Assembly: GCA_027051165.1 (NCBI GenBank)
Contig: JALTZZ010000086.1
Coordinates: 1 to 48,909 of the forward strand
Direction: 5' to 3'
From: an archaeon
GTDB lineage: Archaea; Hydrothermarchaeota; Hydrothermarchaeia; JALTZZ01
DNA length: 48,909 nucleotides
Shown here: positions 1,966 through 47,077 of the stretch, one piece after another
Numbering within the stretch: the stretch's first letter is position 1
How the letters are laid out: each line of letters begins with the position of its first letter
Position numbers and translations under genes: made by a program
The notes under the pieces: model-generated
Database searches by the model: none
What the model was told of the DNA's origin: nothing
Seen by the model: the letters and a program-made list of their open reading frames with translations, nothing else

Positions 1966-3164
1966 AGAATGCTTTTCCAAAATTGAAAAACTGCTCCTTA
2001 AGAAATGCAGAAAAATTTTTCTTATACAACTTTAAAAAAGATGAGCTTTATGAGCTTGATAGAGAGGCTTTTGAATTTTTAAAGCACCTCTCTGGAGATT
2101 ACTCTATATATGAACTTAAAAAAATTTTCGGAGATAAAATATTGGAAACTTTAAAATTTCTCGAAGAAGAAGAGTGTTTGGAATTTATAAATGGAGTTGA
2201 AAAAAGAGAAAAAAGAAAAATAACCGTTAAAAAATCACCGATACCTTCACTCAGATACCTCCAGCTCCATATAACGGAGAAATGCAATTTAAATTGTAAA
2301 CACTGCTACCTTGGAAGGAAATCCAAGAAATCAATGGATATTGAGCTTGCGAAAAGGATTGTGGATGAATTCTCAGAAATAGGACTTAAGCTTATTATTA
2401 CTGGAGGAGAGCCTCTTCTATACGAAAATATATGGGAATTCTTAGAATATGCAAGAAAAAAAGATATTAGAATCGTTGTTTTATCCAACGGAACTTTAAT
2501 AAATGAAAATACGGCAAAAAAGCTTTCAAAGTATGCCGATGAAGTTCAGATAAGCTTGGATGGTCTTAAAGAGGGGCATGAGTTTTTAAGGGGAAAAGGA
2601 ACCTTTGAGAAAACTATCGAAGGAATAAAAAATGCAAAGAAGTATATGAAAGTAAGCGTTGCAACGATGATTCACAGAAAAAACATCAATGAATTCCCGA
2701 AACTAAGCTCCTTAATATCAAAGATTGCGGATGAGTGGTTTTTGGATATTCCTTCGATAAAGGGAAACGCTACCAAGGATATCCTTCCTGACCTTGAAAA
2801 GGCGGTAGAAATCTTCCTAAGCTATGGGTTCTCAGAAGCTGTTCACGAGAGCAGCGGTGAATACTCTTGCGGTTCTCACTTAGCCTCGATAGATGTAGAC
2901 GGCTACTTTGCTAAGTGCGGATTCTTTGAGCCAATCTGCCACGTAAGCGAGGGACTTCTAAGCTGTTGGCAAAAGATTGTTGAAAAGATGACTCCAAAGC
3001 TTAGCGAGCTTGAGTGTAGAAACTGCGAATACTTGGAAAACTGCAGAGGTGGATGCAGATACAGAGCTTTTTTAGAAAAAGACCTTTATTCGAAAGACAG
3101 ATTTATGTGCATGCTATTTGCACGGCTATCGCACCAAAAACAGCACCAACAATGCTCGATATAA
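1962..3164 (+). CDS. Radical SAM/SPASM protein with PqqD-like N-terminus
   Basis: The protein has 400 residues. Residues 1-85 resemble a PqqD-type winged-helix (RRE-like) domain. The radical SAM core follows, with the CxxxCxxC cluster motif at C108, C112 and C115 (TEKCNLNCKHCY) and TGGEP near 148-152. The C-terminal SPASM region has cysteines at about 303, 319, 352, 355, 361, 365 and 383, enough for two auxiliary iron-sulphur clusters. SPASM enzymes modify peptides or, in archaea, haem precursors (AhbC/AhbD). The N-terminal domain favours a peptide or protein substrate, but this is inference. The start is a TTG overlapping the stop of the small upstream gene. The last 62 bases overlap the convergent DUF92 gene, and the tail after C383 looks unconserved. 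Confidence 0.85.
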   Translation: MKNAFPKLKNCSLRNAEKFFLYNFKKDELYELDREAFEFLKHLSGDYSIYELKKIFGDKILETLKFLEEEECLEFINGVEKREKRKITVKKSPIPSLRYLQLHITEKCNLNCKHCYLGRKSKKSMDIELAKRIVDEFSEIGLKLIITGGEPLLYENIWEFLEYARKKDIRIVVLSNGTLINENTAKKLSKYADEVQISLDGLKEGHEFLRGKGTFEKTIEGIKNAKKYMKVSVATMIHRKNINEFPKLSSLISKIADEWFLDIPSIKGNATKDILPDLEKAVEIFLSYGFSEAVHESSGEYSCGSHLASIDVDGYFAKCGFFEPICHVSEGLLSCWQKIVEKMTPKLSELECRNCEYLENCRGGCRYRAFLEKDLYSKDRFMCMLFARLSHQKQHQQCSI

Positions 3165-5362: not shown

Positions 5363-6418
5363 ATGATAACAAAAAAGGAAGCCTTAGAACTTCTTAAAAG
5401 CGATATATCATTTTTCAAAAAAATTTCAGAATTCTCGGAGATCCTTGCACAAAGAGAGGTTTCTTACTCCAAAAACGTTTTCATTCCGCTTACAAATGCG
5501 TGCAGAAATAGATGCGGCTACTGCTACTTCAGAAGCGATTCTCCGAAAATAATGAGCAGAGAAGAAGTCCTAAGAACCGTAATGCTCGGAAAGAAGTTTA
5601 ACTGTAAGGAAGCCCTCTTTACATTCGGTGAAAAACCAGAAACAAATGAAAAAATAAAAAAAACTCTTAAGACATTTGGATACGATAGTATTGTTGATTA
5701 TTTGTATGATCTGTGCGAAGAATCCCTTAAGATAGGATTGCTACCGCATACAAACGCTGGAGTTATAGAGTTTAGTGAACTAAAAATGCTCAGAGAAGTT
5801 AACGCAAGCATGGGGTTAATGCTTGAGAATGCAAGCACAAGACTGTGCAAAAATGGAATGCCGCATGAAAAAAGTCCGGGAAAAAATCCTAAGGTCAGGA
5901 TAAGGTTTATAAGATGGGCTGGAAGGCTTAAAATACCTTTTACAACAGGTTTGCTTATAGGTATAGGGGAAAATTATGAGGAAATCCTTGGCTCTCTTTT
6001 AGTCATAAAGAGACTTCATGAGAAATATGGGCACATACAGGAAGTAATTATTCAGAACTTTAAGCCAAAAAAAGGAACGCCGATGCAGGATCACAGAGAA
6101 CCGAGCATGTTTAAAATGATAAAGGTCGTTGCTGTTGCAAGGCTTTTGCTTAATACAAACATTCAGGTTCCCCCAAATCTGAACAGATATTGGCAGATGT
6201 TTATAGCCTATGGAGCTAACGATTTAGGTGGCATATCACCGGTAACGAAGGATTATATAAACCCAGAGTCTCCTTGGCCAGAGATCAACGAGCTAAAAGT
6301 CCTTGCGAGAGAAATGAACATCAAGCTAAAGGAAAGGCTTCCTATATATCCGGAGTTCATAGAGAAAGGCTGGTTCAGCGAAAAGGTAGGTAGCGTTGTT
6401 GAAAAACTAAGGTGGTGA
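5363..6418 (+). CDS. cofG: FO synthase subunit 1 (CofG)
   Basis: CofG is the radical SAM half of 7,8-didemethyl-8-hydroxy-5-deazariboflavin synthase. It closes the deazaflavin ring of F420 from the adduct made by CofH. From the ATG at 5363 the cluster cysteines are C47, C51 and C54 (TNACRNRCGYCYFR). The segments TFGEKPE, TTGLLIGIGE and NFKPKKGTPM fit CofG. An upstream GTG at 5345 would add six residues, but the GGTG motif just before 5363 favours the shorter form. cofH starts four bases after the stop, so the two are co-transcribed, as in several archaea. Confidence 0.95.
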   Translation: MITKKEALELLKSDISFFKKISEFSEILAQREVSYSKNVFIPLTNACRNRCGYCYFRSDSPKIMSREEVLRTVMLGKKFNCKEALFTFGEKPETNEKIKKTLKTFGYDSIVDYLYDLCEESLKIGLLPHTNAGVIEFSELKMLREVNASMGLMLENASTRLCKNGMPHEKSPGKNPKVRIRFIRWAGRLKIPFTTGLLIGIGENYEEILGSLLVIKRLHEKYGHIQEVIIQNFKPKKGTPMQDHREPSMFKMIKVVAVARLLLNTNIQVPPNLNRYWQMFIAYGANDLGGISPVTKDYINPESPWPEINELKVLAREMNIKLKERLPIYPEFIEKGWFSEKVGSVVEKLRW

Positions 6419-6421
6419 AGC

Positions 6422-7516
6422 ATGATATTTGAGCTTGTAGAGAAAAGCGAGGTTGCAGACATCCTTGAAAAAGCATTAAAAGGTTCAAGAATAAGTGAAA
6501 AGGAGGCTTTAGAACTTTTTAACGCAGATAGCTTAAATTTTATTGGATATGTGGCTGATTTTATTAGGAAGAAGAAGTGCGGCGATGTTGTTACGTTTGT
6601 TGTTAACAGGAACATAAACTTCACAAATATATGTATAAATAATTGCAGATTCTGTGCATATAGGAGAAAAAAAGGAGATAAAGATGCCTATACTCTTAAG
6701 ATATCTGAAATTATAAAAAAGGCTAAAGAAGCGGAAGCAAAGGGAGCTACAGAAGTATGCATTCAAGGTGGAATAAATTCTGAGCTCAGCTTTGAATACT
6801 ACCTCGAAATACTGAGGGGAATAAAGAGAGAAACAAATCTTCACATACATGCATTTTCTCCTATGGAAATTAAACATATAAGTGAGAAATCTGGTTATGG
6901 AATAAAAGAAACATTAAAAATCCTTAAAGAGAATGGTCTTGACTCCATGCCGGGAACCGCTGCAGAAATTCTTGTTGACAACGTTAGGAAGGTTATATGT
7001 CCAGAAAAAATTACAACTAAGGAATGGATTGATATTATAGAGACTGCACATAGAATAGGAATTCCAACGACTGCAACAATCCTCTATGGTCATGTTGAGA
7101 GCTATGAGCACGTTGTTGAGCATTTAGGAATAATAAGAGAAATTCAAGATAAAACTAAAGGATTTACGGAATTCGTTCCTCTATCTTTCATACATAAAAG
7201 AACAGAGCTATATAGAAAATATAACACTCAGGGATCAAGCGGATTGTATGATATAAAGATTCATGCAATTTCAAGGATATTCCTCGATAATTTCAGAAAT
7301 ATACAAGTTTCTTGGGTAAAATTAGGTAAAAAGCTTGCACAAATAATTTTAAGCTATGGTGCAAATGATTTTGGTGGCACACTGATGGAGGAAAATATAT
7401 CAAGAGCCGCTGGGGCAAGCGAAAAGCTTTTAAGAAAGGAGGAGATTGTAAATATAATTAGGGGGGCTGGAAGAATACCGAAGCAGAGGGACACTTTGTA
7501 TAATGTAATTTCATAA
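6422..7516 (+). CDS. cofH: FO synthase subunit 2 (CofH)
   Basis: CofH transfers the p-hydroxybenzyl part of tyrosine onto 5-amino-6-ribitylaminouracil in F420 synthesis. The 364 residues carry the radical SAM motif at C71, C75 and C78 (NICINNCRFCAYRR), CIQGGIN near 115, and the TATILYGHVE segment. The gene follows cofG by four bases with a GGTG ribosome binding site at the junction. Its substrate is an intermediate of riboflavin synthesis, which ties it to ribH and arfB at 40964-42069. Confidence 0.95.
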   Translation: MIFELVEKSEVADILEKALKGSRISEKEALELFNADSLNFIGYVADFIRKKKCGDVVTFVVNRNINFTNICINNCRFCAYRRKKGDKDAYTLKISEIIKKAKEAEAKGATEVCIQGGINSELSFEYYLEILRGIKRETNLHIHAFSPMEIKHISEKSGYGIKETLKILKENGLDSMPGTAAEILVDNVRKVICPEKITTKEWIDIIETAHRIGIPTTATILYGHVESYEHVVEHLGIIREIQDKTKGFTEFVPLSFIHKRTELYRKYNTQGSSGLYDIKIHAISRIFLDNFRNIQVSWVKLGKKLAQIILSYGANDFGGTLMEENISRAAGASEKLLRKEEIVNIIRGAGRIPKQRDTLYNVIS

Positions 7517-11579: not shown

Positions 11580-13142
11580 CTATGTTGGATCTATCCTCCT
11601 ATATAAATCGTCCTCAAGCTTCCTTCCAGTTCTCTTTTCCCATTCTTCTATGCTTATGCTGTATTTTTCCTGAATCTTGTCCCTATATAACTCCGGAAGA
11701 ACGTTAAACGTGCAAAATGGTATGAGCCTTCTATCTGGTGTTACATAGTGTATGTTGCACCTCATTACCCTCTCTAAGTCGTAGTTGTATAGGTCTTGGA
11801 AGTGCATCATCCCTATAAACAATGTCTTGGAGTGAAATTCTCCAAGCGTGCTGTAGTCATGCTTTATCAGGACGTTATATAGTATCTTTGCAAAATTTAT
11901 GCTTTTTGGCTGATTTTTCTTGTCTATAAACTTGCTTATTTTCGATATGAGCTTAAATCCTACAATCAATCTGCTTTTACCTTTTCTAAGCTCCTCGCTC
12001 AGTTCATTTAGGAAGTTGTAAAGTCCTTCTACATCAACAAACCTCGTTACTGGAATTACTTTTCCATCTTCTTTAAAAAGATACGTTGCCATTCCACACG
12101 CAAAGTGATTGCTAAGCTCATAGTATGGCTCTTTTGTTATCGCCTCAACAAAATGTGTTATTGCTGTTGTATATGGAACTGGATAGAAATCCTCCCTTGT
12201 TAATATGCCGTTGCTCTGCTCCTCAAGCCTTTTTATAACATCTGGTATCGTTATCCTATATTTTTCCCTTTCCCTCTTGCTCATTCTTCCAACAAGGCTA
12301 ACGGGCTGGAAGTTAACCCCTCTAACGATATCTATGTTATCGAGTGCAAATTCGACTATCTTCCATACCTCGTGATCGTTGACACTTTTAATTACTGTTG
12401 GAACAAGAACTATTCCTAAACCAGCCTTTCTACAGTTTTCTAATACCTTAGGAACCTCCCAGTGATTCTTAGGATTTGTTTTTGGTGATACGCCATCGAA
12501 TGAAAGATACAACGTGTTCACACCAGCTTCTCTAAGTTTCTTAGCGAGAGTAGGATCTTTAGCAAGCCTAATACCGTTTGAATTCAGTTGAACATGCTCT
12601 ATTCCATACTTCTTAGCCAGCTTAACTATCTCCACAAGATCATCTCTTAGGGTTGGCTCACCCCCAGTTAACTGAACCGCATTTGCTGGTATGGGTTTTT
12701 GATTCCTCATAACTTTAAGCATCTCCTCTATCTGCTCAAGCGTTGGCTCATAAACATAGCCAGCCTTCTTTGCATAGAAGAAGCAATACCAGCAAGCCAG
12801 ATCGCAGCGGTTCGTTACAACCATGTTTACGAGAGCACTGTGGCTTTTGTGTATAGGGCAAAGACCACAGGTGTATGGACAGTTAACCATATTTACATTG
12901 GGATTCTCAACACCGTTACCATCGTGGGCAAATTTTCTTGCTTTCATATAGAGTTCATAATCTCCCCAGTATATCTCCTCAAAATATCCATGCTTTTCAC
13001 AGAATTTTCTTATATAAACTTTATTTTCCTTCTCAAAAATTACTGCATCAATGACACTGATGCATTCTGGACAAAGTGATTTCGTGTATTGAATGAAAGA
13101 TTCCCCCTCTCTAAGTAGCATGAGTTTTTCTACAGCTTCCAT
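11580..13142 (-). CDS. tes: Tes-like radical SAM tetraether lipid synthase
   Basis: This radical SAM protein of about 520 residues resembles the archaeal Tes/GDGT-MAS enzyme (M. jannaschii MJ0619 type), which joins two archaeol-type chains tail-to-tail into tetraether lipids. The family layout is present: an N-terminal rubredoxin-like zinc site (CPEC at 24-27, with C48 and HG), an extra cluster motif CPYTCGLC (C88, C92, C95), the SAM cluster at C113, C117 and C120 (CDLACWYC), then LTGGEPTLR and LSFDGVSP. Further cysteines occur in the C-terminal half (FACGM, MRCNIHY, IPFCTF). I start at the ATG at 13142 behind GGGGTG; a longer form from 13166 is possible. A less likely alternative is a related archaeal enzyme with another lipid substrate. 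Confidence 0.8.
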   Translation of the reverse strand: MEAVEKLMLLREGESFIQYTKSLCPECISVIDAVIFEKENKVYIRKFCEKHGYFEEIYWGDYELYMKARKFAHDGNGVENPNVNMVNCPYTCGLCPIHKSHSALVNMVVTNRCDLACWYCFFYAKKAGYVYEPTLEQIEEMLKVMRNQKPIPANAVQLTGGEPTLRDDLVEIVKLAKKYGIEHVQLNSNGIRLAKDPTLAKKLREAGVNTLYLSFDGVSPKTNPKNHWEVPKVLENCRKAGLGIVLVPTVIKSVNDHEVWKIVEFALDNIDIVRGVNFQPVSLVGRMSKREREKYRITIPDVIKRLEEQSNGILTREDFYPVPYTTAITHFVEAITKEPYYELSNHFACGMATYLFKEDGKVIPVTRFVDVEGLYNFLNELSEELRKGKSRLIVGFKLISKISKFIDKKNQPKSINFAKILYNVLIKHDYSTLGEFHSKTLFIGMMHFQDLYNYDLERVMRCNIHYVTPDRRLIPFCTFNVLPELYRDKIQEKYSISIEEWEKRTGRKLEDDLYRRIDPT

Positions 13143-28614: not shown

Positions 28615-28851
28615 ATGATCACCATTGCACATAATTGCAAGAAATAATATAAATTTTTTGGCTTAAAATTGGCATTAAATTATCACTAAATGTTCAAATA
28701 AATTCAAACCATTCTTAAATTTTCTATTTTTTAACATTTTAGTTTCTCTTGTATTCTATAAATTTATAATGAAAAATCTATAAAAATATGGTAGAAAACT
28801 TTTCAAATTTAGTATCTGTGGCTAATAATTGAGCAAATAGTGGCGGTGCTC

Positions 28852-29844
28852 ATGGATATAATTAAAGAGATAAGAAAAAAAGCATCTAATAAAGAACCTA
28901 TAAGCTATGAAGAAGCTTCTTATATATTTAAGCTTAAAAATGAAAATCTTATTAGAGAAGTTATGAAAATTTCAAAAAAACTTAAGGAAGATGTTTTTGG
29001 AGATAAATTAACATTCTACTTTACAAGCGATAAATTTCCAACGATCTCTGTTACCGGATATGCATGTAGTTTAAGCTGCAAGCACTGCAAAAAGCTCATG
29101 CTTAAGCCGCTTCACAAGGCTAAAACAAATGATGAAATTTACAGGCTGTGCGTGATGTTCTATAAAAAAGGAGCATTAGGCTGCTTACTAACGGGAGGCT
29201 GCGATTTAGATGGCTCTGTTCCGATATACAGATATACTGATGCCATTAAGAGAGTTAAGGAGGATACCGATCTAATTCTTCTTGCCCATACCGGGATAAT
29301 TGATTATAAAAAAGCAAGCTCCCTCGCAAAAGCTGGCTTAGACGGTGTCTCGCTGGACGTTGTTGGAAGTAGCAGAGTAACCAAGGAGGTTTATGGGATA
29401 GAGATTCCTGAGGAGAAGTATAGGGAAACGCTGATCAATTTGGAAAAAGCTGGGATAAGAATAATATCTCCTCACGTAACCACGGGGTTATACTTTGGAA
29501 AACTAAGCCATGAATTAAATGCATTGAAGATTATAAGGGATAGCATAGCTCCAACCGCCATAGAAATAACAGCTCTAATGCCCTTAAAAGGCACGCCGAT
29601 GGAGAAGTCAAGGGTAAAGCCCTTAGATGTTGCAAAGGTCGTTGCGATTGCTAAGCTTATGTTTCCCGAAATAGAGATAACCCTTGGCTGTGCCCATTCG
29701 AAGGGAATGGATAGATACGTAATTGAACGTCTTGCAATAGAAGCGGGGGTAAGCAATATCGCTATACCGACGGAAAGGACTATGAGGGAATTTAAAGGGA
29801 GAATACAGAACACGTGCTGTGCAATACCTTATATGGGTGTTTAA
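28852..29844 (+). CDS. Radical SAM protein, COG1856-like, first of a triad
   Basis: The protein has 330 residues from the ATG at 28852 (GGCGGTG lies just upstream; a GTG at 28840 would add four). An N-terminal helical stretch is followed by ISVTGYACSLSCKHC, the CxxxCxxC cluster at C72, C76 and C79. LLTGGCDLDGSVP, LAHTGIID, LDVVGS and LMPLKGTPM follow. This is the layout of the uncharacterised biotin-synthase-like group COG1856. The C-terminal QNTCCAIP adds two adjacent cysteines. The gene at 30815 is a paralogue. It starts a run of three radical SAM genes and may form a two-protein enzyme with the next one, as in archaeal LipS1/LipS2. Confidence 0.85.
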   Translation: MDIIKEIRKKASNKEPISYEEASYIFKLKNENLIREVMKISKKLKEDVFGDKLTFYFTSDKFPTISVTGYACSLSCKHCKKLMLKPLHKAKTNDEIYRLCVMFYKKGALGCLLTGGCDLDGSVPIYRYTDAIKRVKEDTDLILLAHTGIIDYKKASSLAKAGLDGVSLDVVGSSRVTKEVYGIEIPEEKYRETLINLEKAGIRIISPHVTTGLYFGKLSHELNALKIIRDSIAPTAIEITALMPLKGTPMEKSRVKPLDVAKVVAIAKLMFPEIEITLGCAHSKGMDRYVIERLAIEAGVSNIAIPTERTMREFKGRIQNTCCAIPYMGV

Positions 29845-29845
29845 A

Positions 29846-30814
29846 ATGGTTGAAAAAATAAGGGTAAGTGTTGGAACCGCAAGTGTTATTGGTTTAAGAA
29901 AGGTTAGAGCTAAAATTAAAATGAGCACCGCATATCTGTTAACATACGTAAACGGGAGATGTTCTCAGAACTGCAGATTTTGTGCACATGCAAGAGAGGC
30001 AAAGGCAAGCTTAGATAGGGTTGCACGTGGAGTTTATCCTCCTTTTAGCTACAGAGAGGTAGTTGAGAAGCTTAAAGAAGCAAGTAAGAGGGGAATAATA
30101 AAGAGAATATGCCTACAGACCATCAATCATAAAAAGGTTTTAGAAAGTTTAGATAGAATTTTAAAAGATCTTGTTGAAATAGCTCCAGTTACACTTTCAA
30201 GACATCCAGCGAGCTATGAGGAGCTTAAAATAGCTAAAGATATTGGTGTTGACAGAATTGTCATACCACTGGATGCGGCGAGCAAAGATATTTTTGATAG
30301 AATAAAAGGAAAACATGCTGGTAATTCATATACTTGGGAGGAGCACTGGAATGGACTAAAGAGAGCTGTTGATGTTTTCGGCAGATTTAAAGTTGGAACG
30401 CATATAATAGTAGGACTTGGAGAAAGTGAAAGAGATGTCGTAGAAACTATAATAAAGCTGCATAACCTTGGCGTTAGTGTAGGGCTTTTTGCCTATGTGC
30501 CAATACAAGGGACGGGATTGAATTTAAAACCTCCAGACATAGAAAGCTACAGGAGAATACAGATAGCACATTATTTGATAAAAAATGATCATAAAAACTT
30601 TAAATTTGAAAATAACAAAATAGTTGACTTTGGAATATCAGATGAGGAATTAAATGAGATAATAATGAGTGGAAAGCCTTTTGTTGTTCACGGTTGTCCA
30701 AACTGCAACAGACCCTACTCTACAGAGAGTCCTAAGGGTCCAATATACAACTATCCAGAGATACCGTGTAAAGAGGATTTGTTAGACATAAAAAAGCTCA
30801 TAATGGGATGCTGA
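29846..30814 (+). CDS. Radical SAM protein, LipS/COG2516-like
   Basis: The protein has 322 residues from the ATG at 29846, behind GGGTGT. It starts VSVGTASVIGLRK, and the cluster motif is GRCSQNCRFCAHARE (C39, C43, C46). ICLQTIN and VGTHIIVGLGE follow, and the tail has VHGCPNCNRPYSTESPKG. This pattern fits the biotin-synthase-related group COG2516, which includes one partner of the two-component archaeal lipoyl synthase (LipS1/LipS2). The cysteines near the C-terminus could hold the auxiliary cluster that donates sulphur. It sits between two COG1856-like genes with no gaps. The substrate is not shown: no lipoyl-domain protein is in the window. Confidence 0.82.
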   Translation: MVEKIRVSVGTASVIGLRKVRAKIKMSTAYLLTYVNGRCSQNCRFCAHAREAKASLDRVARGVYPPFSYREVVEKLKEASKRGIIKRICLQTINHKKVLESLDRILKDLVEIAPVTLSRHPASYEELKIAKDIGVDRIVIPLDAASKDIFDRIKGKHAGNSYTWEEHWNGLKRAVDVFGRFKVGTHIIVGLGESERDVVETIIKLHNLGVSVGLFAYVPIQGTGLNLKPPDIESYRRIQIAHYLIKNDHKNFKFENNKIVDFGISDEELNEIIMSGKPFVVHGCPNCNRPYSTESPKGPIYNYPEIPCKEDLLDIKKLIMGC

Positions 30815-31783
30815 ATGAAGAAGCTTTTAAGAAAAGGAATTAAAGTTGGGCTTACATACAGAGAAGCTAAGGAGCTTTTTAAGCATGCAAAGCTTGAAGA
30901 GCTCTATGAAGCTTCTATGGAAAAATCTCTCGACAAGACAAAAAAGATAACCTTCTACAAGAATGCCTATGTGCCTGTATCAATAACCGGCTATAAGTGC
31001 AGTTTGAGCTGTAAGCACTGCAACAGACATTACCTGAGGCACATGATACCGGCTCCAAGCGTTGATAGGCTTATTGAGGTATGCGAAAGGCTGAAAAGAA
31101 GAGGTGTTGAAGGCATAGTTCTAAGCGGAGGTAGCAGAAAGGATGGAACTGTTCCCCTCGACGAGTTTGCAGATGGAATAAAGGCTGTTAGGGAAATGGG
31201 TTTAAACGTTTTAGCCCATACAGGACCTGTAAACGAGAGGCAGGTAAAGATTCTTGAAAGAGCTGGATTAACAAGCTCGCTCTTAGACGTTGTTGGAAGC
31301 GGAGATGTTGCTGAGCGTGTTTTTGGCATAAAGATAGGCGAAGACAGATATAGAAAGGCTATAGAGCTAATAAGCGAAAGTTCAATCGGCTTAGCACCTC
31401 ACATTATAGTTGGTTTAGACTTTGGTAATGTAGGGGCAGAAACCCATGAGCTTAAGGCTCTTGACATGCTGAGGGATGCCAATGTGGATACCTTGGTAAT
31501 AGTTGTCCTTATACCAACAAAAGGCACACCAATGCAGGATGTAAAGGCACCTAAGCCAGAGATCGTTGGCAGGATAACAGCCATAGCTAATTTAATGCAT
31601 GAAAGCGAGGTTGCACTTAGCTGTGTTCGGCCGGGAACTCTCTATAGAAAAGCCTTGGATGAGAATGCTATATTAGCTGGTGCAACAAAAGTAGCAATAC
31701 CAAGCTCAAGGGCTTACGAGGTTGCGAAAAGTATAGGAAGAGATTATATAACTTATGAAATGAAGTGCTGTGGAATTGATTAA
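30815..31783 (+). CDS. Radical SAM protein, COG1856-like, third of a triad
   Basis: The protein has 322 residues and is a paralogue of the product of 28852-29844. The two share VSITGYKCSLSCKHC (here C62, C66, C69), LSGG, LAHTG, LDVVGS and LIPTKGTPMQ, and differ throughout at the N-terminus. The C-terminal MKCCGID again ends in adjacent cysteines. The ATG follows directly on the stop of the COG2516-like gene, so the pair is translationally linked. After it the DNA decays into a pseudogene and an IS. Either this or the first gene could be the second LipS component; the other may have a separate role. Confidence 0.85.
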   Translation: MKKLLRKGIKVGLTYREAKELFKHAKLEELYEASMEKSLDKTKKITFYKNAYVPVSITGYKCSLSCKHCNRHYLRHMIPAPSVDRLIEVCERLKRRGVEGIVLSGGSRKDGTVPLDEFADGIKAVREMGLNVLAHTGPVNERQVKILERAGLTSSLLDVVGSGDVAERVFGIKIGEDRYRKAIELISESSIGLAPHIIVGLDFGNVGAETHELKALDMLRDANVDTLVIVVLIPTKGTPMQDVKAPKPEIVGRITAIANLMHESEVALSCVRPGTLYRKALDENAILAGATKVAIPSSRAYEVAKSIGRDYITYEMKCCGID

Positions 31784-43006: not shown

Positions 43007-43972
43007 ATGATAGTAGCTACAGCACAGGGCGTTGAAATCAATGCAACGGAAGATCTATCTGGATTTTCTCTCTTCAACAGTCCATATCATGCACACAGAA
43101 ATTTAGAAGCCATAGATTTAATTCCGAACAAGAATTTCGGTGAAGAAGCTCTTTCACCAGTAAATGGCACCGTTGAGAAAATTTTAAAGTTCAAAGTTAA
43201 AAGTGTCTCTCTTTTTTTTAAAGCTATGGATATTGAATCAACAAAATTTAATGCGGATAAATATGAATATTTAATTTTAATAAGAAGCAGGGAAAACAAG
43301 AAAAAAATGATAAAAATACTACATGTAAAGCCAGAGGTTAGTGAGGGTGATAAAATATATGTAAATGATCCCCTTGGAACCCTCGTAAGAACAAAGCACT
43401 ACTCGTTTTGGGCTGCACCGCACATACACTTAGAAGTTAGGAACGAAAGCGATGCGATAAGGGCGAGGGGAGCATGTAAGCTAAACATAAACACTCTAGG
43501 GTTAAGGATAGAGGATGAAATAATTTACAGCTCGGATAATTTAAGAAGTGCTAATAAATTTGGATTTGTTTCAAGAATAATAGAAGCAACTGACAGCTAC
43601 ATTGAAATAGAAAGCTTATACAGAGGAAAATTTGCACACGCAAGAGTTGGAAATAAGCCATGCATTTTAGACGGTGGAATTCCTCATATGGGATACGGGG
43701 GAGTAATATCTATCTATAACATTAAGCAAAACGAAGATGTGTATTTCAACGGTATAAAAATAGGAAAAATTGTGAAGAGTTATGGAAAAATAGGAATATT
43801 TAATCCTAAAATAAAAATTAAAGTAAACAACATTCCAATGCGTGGAATTTCATTCATACTTGGGTTGAAAAATTTGAAATCAACAAGAATAGTATTTATA
43901 AGGAGGGAAAGACTATTTGAAAGTGGTAGAAAAGTAAAAATAGAAATTTTTGGTGATAATAATGATGTTTAA
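43007..43972 (+). CDS. M23-like (LytM) domain protein
   Basis: The protein has 321 residues and no signal peptide or membrane segment. Residues 1-150 resemble an M23/LytM fold: HRNLEAID (H30, D37) followed by a G-T-V strand (SPVNGTVEKI) and HIHLEVRN (H139, H141), with H106 also conserved in place. These would be the zinc ligands (HxxxxxxD and HxH). Classical M23 enzymes cut peptidoglycan, which most archaea lack. Either the substrate is another peptide or the domain has a binding role. The C-terminal 170 residues are unfamiliar. The stop overlaps the next gene by 11 bases. Confidence 0.65.
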   Translation: MIVATAQGVEINATEDLSGFSLFNSPYHAHRNLEAIDLIPNKNFGEEALSPVNGTVEKILKFKVKSVSLFFKAMDIESTKFNADKYEYLILIRSRENKKKMIKILHVKPEVSEGDKIYVNDPLGTLVRTKHYSFWAAPHIHLEVRNESDAIRARGACKLNINTLGLRIEDEIIYSSDNLRSANKFGFVSRIIEATDSYIEIESLYRGKFAHARVGNKPCILDGGIPHMGYGGVISIYNIKQNEDVYFNGIKIGKIVKSYGKIGIFNPKIKIKVNNIPMRGISFILGLKNLKSTRIVFIRRERLFESGRKVKIEIFGDNNDV

Positions 43973-45949: not shown

Positions 45950-47077
45950 ATGGAATACGATGCAGTTGTAGTAGGGGCTGGAGTTGCCGGCAGCATAGCA
46001 GCATACATACTGGCAAAGGAAGGTTTTAAGGTTGCAATAATAGAAAAAGAGGAGCTTCCGAGATATAAACTCTGTGGTGGAGCAATTTCAAACAAAACTC
46101 TTAATTTTCTCAAGAAAATAGGAATAAAAATAGACGAAGATATCGTTGAGAATAGAATAAAAGAAGTCGAAGTCCATACACCAAATTTCTCAAGATATCT
46201 GCATGTTGATATTGGAATTCTAACATATAGGGATAAATTTGACTATTTTTTGACAAAACATGCTATAAATAACAACTGCAGTGTTATAAAAGCAAGATTT
46301 ATTGATTTAAAGCAAAATGAAGATGTTCAAATAAAAACAACTAAGGGAACTTTAAGGGCAAGATATTTAATAGGCTGCGACGGGGTAAACAGCACGGTTT
46401 TAATAAAATCAAGGCTTGGCAAAATAAAGGGGGAAAATTTGGTTCTTGCAATAGAGTCCGAGTATAGAGATGCAGAGTTCGATGTATTAAAGCTCTATTT
46501 TGGATATGTAAATTTTGGATATGCGTGGATATTTCCAAAAAGGCATGGAACTACTGTTGGAATAGGAACTTTCTCAAACGATTCAAAAAGAACCTTAAAA
46601 AGCTCTTTCTCAAAATTTATAAAAGATGTAGGGCTTAAGCCAATAAAGTTCATGGCTCACAACCTACCATATGCTGGAAGCGTTAAGAAACCTTCAAAAG
46701 GAAAGGTAGCAGTAGCCGGGGATGCTGCTTCATGTGTAGATGCTCTGCTCGGTGAAGGAACTTTTTTCGCAGCTCTCTCTGGGTATTTAGCTGCAGAAAG
46801 TGTGATAGAGGCTTTAGAAAAAGACAGCAACCTTAAAAATTACAATAAAAAGTTTAAAAAGATTATTGCTCCAGAACTAAATACAAGCATAAAGCTCTCA
46901 AATCTCTTTTATTCAAACATGAATTTTAGCTACTTTATACTTGAAAAAGGAGGTTTTGAAGATATTCTTAAAAAAATAGCAAATTCAAGCAAACCCTTTA
47001 CAAGCGTGTATAAAAAGGTAATTCTGCATGCCTTAAAAAGGTATCCTGAGTTTTTATTAAGAAAGCTTTTTAGCTAA
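45950..47077 (+). CDS. Geranylgeranyl reductase family flavoprotein
   Basis: The protein has 375 residues. An N-terminal FAD-binding motif DAVVVGAGVAGS (about 4-15) is followed by IEKEELPRYKLCGGAIS, the family's conserved Cys-Gly region near 42-45. A middle YAWIFPK block and the second FAD motif VAGDAASCVDALLGEG near 250 follow. Archaeal members saturate the geranylgeranyl chains of membrane lipids, which fits the Tes-like enzyme at 11580-13142. Other members reduce different isoprenoids, so the exact substrate is not certain. The last 21 bases overlap the convergent flpA gene. Confidence 0.9.
   Translation: MEYDAVVVGAGVAGSIAAYILAKEGFKVAIIEKEELPRYKLCGGAISNKTLNFLKKIGIKIDEDIVENRIKEVEVHTPNFSRYLHVDIGILTYRDKFDYFLTKHAINNNCSVIKARFIDLKQNEDVQIKTTKGTLRARYLIGCDGVNSTVLIKSRLGKIKGENLVLAIESEYRDAEFDVLKLYFGYVNFGYAWIFPKRHGTTVGIGTFSNDSKRTLKSSFSKFIKDVGLKPIKFMAHNLPYAGSVKKPSKGKVAVAGDAASCVDALLGEGTFFAALSGYLAAESVIEALEKDSNLKNYNKKFKKIIAPELNTSIKLSNLFYSNMNFSYFILEKGGFEDILKKIANSSKPFTSVYKKVILHALKRYPEFLLRKLFS

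Follow-up and report, generated by a model that had tools for sequence, protein, structure and literature searches.

Lipoyl synthases composed of LipS1 and LipS2 are known as a two-protein replacement for LipA. The window (the whole stretch of DNA analysed, 48,909 nucleotides from an archaeon of the phylum Hydrothermarchaeota) contains three radical SAM genes that, according to their ORF coordinates, lie back to back on one strand, separated by 1 and 0 bases, with two related genes (A and B) flanking a LipS2 gene (Table 1). The question raised by this locus is what a second LipS1-like protein does beside a single LipS2, and on which substrate. The first-pass annotation, which was right about the layout, proposed either a three-protein version of the LipS1/LipS2 system or a system for thiolation of another substrate. 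Of these, the former is the best-supported reading, while the latter is not needed to account for the trio, though possible for one copy. With a probability of roughly 0.7, the three genes encode a lipoyl synthase of the LipS1/LipS2 type that has two non-redundant LipS1 paralogues and an Hdr-linked carrier.

Table 1. Positions in the window of the genes considered here.
Feature	Coordinates	Strand	Remarks
LipS1-like paralogue A	28852..29844	+	330 aa from ATG at 28852; in-frame GTG at 28840 is a possible alternative start
LipS2	29846..30814	+	322 aa, ATG start; NCBIfam LipS2 match above cut-off
LipS1-like paralogue B	30815..31783	+	322 aa, ATG start; LipS1 is the best family match
X, degenerate M23-like protein	43007..43972	+	321 aa; Pfam M23 match under cut-off
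Geranylgeranyl-reductase-family flavoprotein	45950..47077	+	GG-red-SF 180.8 bits against a cut-off of 158.8

In NCBIfam naming, the outer gene type is LipS1 (NF053742, curated cut-off 230 bits) and the middle gene type LipS2 (NF053743, curated cut-off 270 bits). The middle gene, which carries the GCPNCNRP motif described in the first pass, matches the LipS2 model with 322.3 bits (E 3e-96). For the outer genes, LipS1 is by far the top family, with 202.3 bits for A (E 1.1e-59) and 216.2 bits for B (E 6.2e-64), but both scores fall under the cut-off, and A and B are therefore referred to as LipS1-like paralogues inside the LipS1 tree. B is nearer to the canonical model than A, and its orthologues in three other genomes of the phylum (G020, G021 and G022) are narrowly above the cut-off (231-232 bits); both copies in the Altiarchaeota genomes G023 and G052 also exceed it. 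Weaker profile matches were to BioB, PylB and HmdB. The signature previously noted in the outer genes (CSLSCKHC, LAHTG, LDVVGS and terminal adjacent cysteines) is present in both, and pairwise comparison gives 37% identity over 321 aa (E 1e-58). A search of viral contigs found no LipS2 relative.

A close known system is that of Thermococcus kodakarensis, where LipS2 (TK2248) acts first, at C8, and LipS1 (TK2109) second, at C6 (PMC9585515). Mutagenesis in that organism identified C230, C276, C277 and probably H159 as auxiliary-cluster ligands of LipS1, and C85, C276, C279 and H178 as those of LipS2 (PMC9585515). Alignment places the equivalents at C280, C322, C323 and H208 in A, at C270, C318, C319 and H196 in B, and at C89, C284, C287 and H186 (invariant) in LipS2, while the Cx3Cx2C cysteines are C72/C76/C79, C62/C66/C69 and C39/C43/C46, respectively. 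Because the ligand positions align with those of T. kodakarensis, the terminal adjacent cysteines noticed in the first pass correspond to known cluster ligands. None of the ligand positions varies among 12 A and 10 B sequences, except where a contig end cuts a sequence short, and with all ligands intact in both clades, degeneration or inactivity of one paralogue is ruled out. The AF2 models (pLDDT 96.0 for A, a HydG/biotin-synthase-like barrel, and 95.9 for B, a biotin-synthase-like barrel) have biotin synthase, HydG and HydE as closest solved folds. The trio thus belongs to the same two families as the T. kodakarensis system, with the same Cx3Cx2C motif and auxiliary Cys/His ligands, but that system, as described, has a single LipS1 beside a single LipS2, whereas two anciently separated LipS1 flank one LipS2 in the window.

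The age of the pair was assessed in a tree of 52 LipS1 sequences, which includes no biochemically characterised LipS1 and agrees with a smaller first tree. A and B both fall within archaeal LipS1, in two clades (A, support 100/98; B, 100/99), each of which includes Hydrothermarchaeota and Altiarchaeota, with three Hydrothermarchaeota families represented; the paralogues thus form separate and old clades, one of the outcomes on which the first pass had left its proposal to depend. A and B are joined as one clade with support of only 85/83, and the pair likely arose from a single duplication. The LipS2 proteins from these genomes fall into a single clade of 11 (100/98), congruent with A and B. 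Recent duplication within Hydrothermarchaeota, the case that the first pass had set against its own proposal, is ruled out, since constraining the Hydrothermarchaeota copies together fails (AU p = 0.00073). The trees suggest that the A/B pair either predates the split of the two archaeal phyla or was passed between them as a whole set.

In the phylum of the window, a profile search detects LipS1 in 13 of 23 genomes, four of which (the window's genome, G000, and G020, G021 and G022) have two. The assemblies of these relatives are mostly fragmented. The order A-LipS2-B recurs in G020, across a contig end, while in G021 and G022 A and LipS2 are adjacent and B is on a separate contig. Genomes of family f3 have a single, bacterial-like LipS1 in a LipS1-LplA-GcvH-LipS2 cluster. 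In G024, A and LipS2 are present and B was not found (HdrC-HdrB-GcvH-LipS1A-LipS2, contiguous at locus L091), and A with LipS2 may be a complete synthase there. Within Altiarchaeota, the phylum of G023, LipS1 occurs in 10 of 29 genomes, five of which have two copies. The cluster is LipS1A-LplA-(flavoprotein)-LplB-LplA'-LipS2-LipS1B-X-GcvH, with two LplA and one LipS2, in most cases with GcvH, and with small variations: an extra gene between LipS2 and LipS1B in G023, a contig end inside X in G045, and a cluster split across contigs in G046. HdrA-HdrC-HdrB lies upstream of the LipS1A cluster in G052, and a [FeFe] hydrogenase-like gene (L207:229-2043) is found upstream of these Hdr genes and LipS1A. 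Among the other records, LipS1/LipS2 pairs attributed to Baldrarchaeota (L092) and to Hecatella (L133) agree exactly in score and frame length, a sign that contigs may be shared or misbinned.

The window itself encodes neither a lipoyl protein nor a ligase, as the first pass stated, but both are supplied elsewhere in the genome (a 2.38-Mb assembly in 171 contigs, completeness 100, contamination 3.65), so that the trio belongs to a genome with ligase and acceptor, located on other contigs. LplA and a separate LplB are encoded on contig C24, and a GcvH-like protein whose lysine motif is ETVKATGE, the only one detected in the genome, on contig C92. Apart from this protein, a biotin/lipoyl domain occurs only in a 573-aa frame judged to be a putative biotin carrier. 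A second LplA on C92 was considered and rejected, the weak match at C92:26483-26749 being a biotin protein ligase (Pfam BPL_LplA_LipB and BPL_C). No LipA was found in a profile search of this genome. In the phylum, 12 of the 13 genomes with LipS1 encode full-length GcvH, against none of the 10 that lack LipS1 (one-sided Fisher test, about 1e-5, calculated by hand), and the sole LipS1 genome without full-length GcvH is 81% complete. LipA occurs in three genomes of the phylum only, all of which lack LipS1. Lipoylation is therefore the likely job of the trio, given that GcvH co-occurs with LipS1 and that LipA is confined to genomes without LipS1. G011, G014 and G016 have classical LipA and LplA, without LipS1 or full-length GcvH; lipoyl systems appear to replace each other within the phylum.

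The GcvH-like protein stands near the head of an Hdr-like operon (L070, G000:C92:1-12000), in the order DUF169, GcvH-like, HdrC, HdrB, HdrA-like, HdrA-FlpD, HdrA-like, ferredoxin-like, HdrC and HdrB; the arrangement in G021 is the same up to the contig end. The glycine decarboxylase P protein (GcvP) gave nothing over the cut-off in the 23 genomes of the phylum, in a search with positive results for 10 of 14 controls, and glycine cleavage as the use of the lipoyl group is thereby ruled out. An acceptor at the head of an Hdr-like operon, in lineages without glycine decarboxylase, again points to lipoylation as the likely function, with a use other than glycine cleavage. As in the sHdr-LbpA system (PMC6067878), a GcvH-like carrier lies beside HdrA, HdrB and HdrC, with two HdrB and two HdrC on C92; compared from the Hdr genes alone, C92 differs in having an HdrA-like protein fused to FlpD and a DUF169 gene before the carrier. 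An Hdr-tied carrier in such lineages bears on the role of lipoic acid in these archaea, a question raised in PMC9585515.

Clusters uniting ligase, LipS1 and LipS2 are described in PMC10332631 (lipS2-lplA-lplB-lipS1 in archaea, lipS1-slpl(AB)-lipT-lipS2 in sulfur oxidisers), and the Altiarchaeota relatives are similar in this respect; an Hdr-associated lipoate-binding protein is common to both. Relative to the clusters of that paper, an extra LipS1 is present here (in Altiarchaeota also an extra LplA, and X), and the window unites the synthase genes only. The concatenated trees of PMC10332631, as described there, use assemblies with single copies only and exclude paralogues. In the literature searched, few papers treat LipS1/LipS2 as enzymes and none describes a duplicated LipS1; the arrangement table of PMC10332631 may list one. 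What distinguishes the present case is an ancient, co-inherited LipS1 pair that accompanies one LipS2 and an Hdr-linked carrier; in at least two archaeal phyla, one partner of a two-protein system is an old pair co-inherited with a lone LipS2.

Several explanations of the pair were weighed against the preferred one. A and B might each finish a different GcvH paralogue, with LipS2 common to both. This one-per-acceptor arrangement would suit Altiarchaeota, where the genomes with both LipS1 (G023, G045, G046, G047 and G052) each carry a pair of GcvH genes from different clades, along with the two LplA and one LipS2 of the cluster. The second of these GcvH clades is also represented in G065, however, which has one LipS1, of another clade, and the Hydrothermarchaeota genomes G000, G020 and G021 have both LipS1 but one GcvH each. 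In Hydrothermarchaeota the LipS1 pair is kept with one detectable acceptor, which the GcvH tree places with the GcvH of the Altiarchaeota clusters (93/92, not starred), and one LipS1 per acceptor accordingly fails there. An acceptor beyond the GCV_H and Biotin_lipoyl models could be missed, and we consider this arrangement unlikely overall. Dosage would be another reason to keep two interchangeable copies, since the sulfur-supplying auxiliary cluster is consumed in turnover; intact catalytic ligands in both clades, and the presence of A and LipS2 without B in G024, are in line with this. Copies retained for dosage over such a time would be expected to remain more alike or to vanish, whereas A and B are 37% identical, recent duplication in Hydrothermarchaeota is rejected (AU p 0.00073), and clade-specific differences are fixed beside two key motifs. 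Dosage is thus very unlikely to be the explanation.

These fixed differences adjoin the SAM-binding GG motif (LTGGC in A, VSGGS in B, and in most others LSGG with C or A next) and the auxiliary cysteine (GCA..K in A, SCV..G in B, and GCA in most others). The sites at which A departs from other LipS1 are not those at which B does, a pattern more in keeping with both copies having specialised than with one decaying, and the combination of intact ligands with divergence next to key motifs suggests that A and B are most likely non-redundant. It was also considered that the system might thiolate a substrate other than an octanoyl carrier, or that one LipS1 might have shifted, for example to a cofactor precursor. 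The scores of both copies under the LipS1 cut-off would allow for this, and the weaker matches to BioB, PylB and HmdB show the breadth of the fold's use, but LipS2 is above its own cut-off, GcvH co-occurs almost strictly in the phylum, and LplA, LplB and GcvH share clusters with LipS genes, which makes such a substrate highly improbable. Alternatively, A and B could catalyse different sulfur insertions on one carrier and, together with LipS2, provide an Hdr-like enzyme with an altered lipoyl group (one bearing a third thiol, for instance) in place of ordinary lipoamide, a quite improbable outcome in our estimate.

In the preferred reading, of a lipoyl synthase with two non-redundant LipS1, LplA and LplB would load octanoate (or lipoate) onto the lysine of the GcvH-like carrier, and sulfur would be inserted at C8 and then at C6, by analogy with T. 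kodakarensis. LipS1 would have been duplicated early, with both copies keeping all catalytic ligands while diverging near the SAM-binding and auxiliary-cluster motifs, and A and B would most likely provide alternative or sequential LipS1 activities, or be partners in one complex. The carrier would work with Hdr-like electron-transfer proteins rather than in glycine cleavage. To judge from sequence comparisons, lipoylation probably takes place in vivo and A and B probably divide the labour. If both LipS1 are indeed needed, the enzyme composition or the product would differ from the known case.

Two further genes of the window may be connected with the system. Protein X is 34% identical over 322 aa (E 3e-44) to the Altiarchaeota gene between LipS1B and GcvH, and a relative lies directly before LipS2 in Bathyarchaeota (L094:9036-9980). 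X is present in 2 of the 4 genomes of the phylum with two LipS1 and in 0 of the 19 others (p about 0.02, calculated by hand), and is a probable member of the lipoyl system. The flavoprotein of the window is only distantly related (28% identity) to the Altiarchaeota cluster gene L207:7231-8355, and is a possible accessory. Flavoproteins of the geranylgeranyl-reductase family adjoin LplA/LipS genes in archaea and bacteria (L207:7231-8355, L206:1490-2536 and L083:370-1488), and these recurring flavoproteins may fill the part proposed for LipT. In G020, a single 647-aa frame (L083:1507-3447) carries an LplA catalytic domain behind a radical SAM/SPASM (AhbD/NirJ2-like) domain. Four more radical SAM domains are encoded between 2271 and 12824 of the window (2271-2705, 5483-5992, 6614-7126 and 12345-12824).
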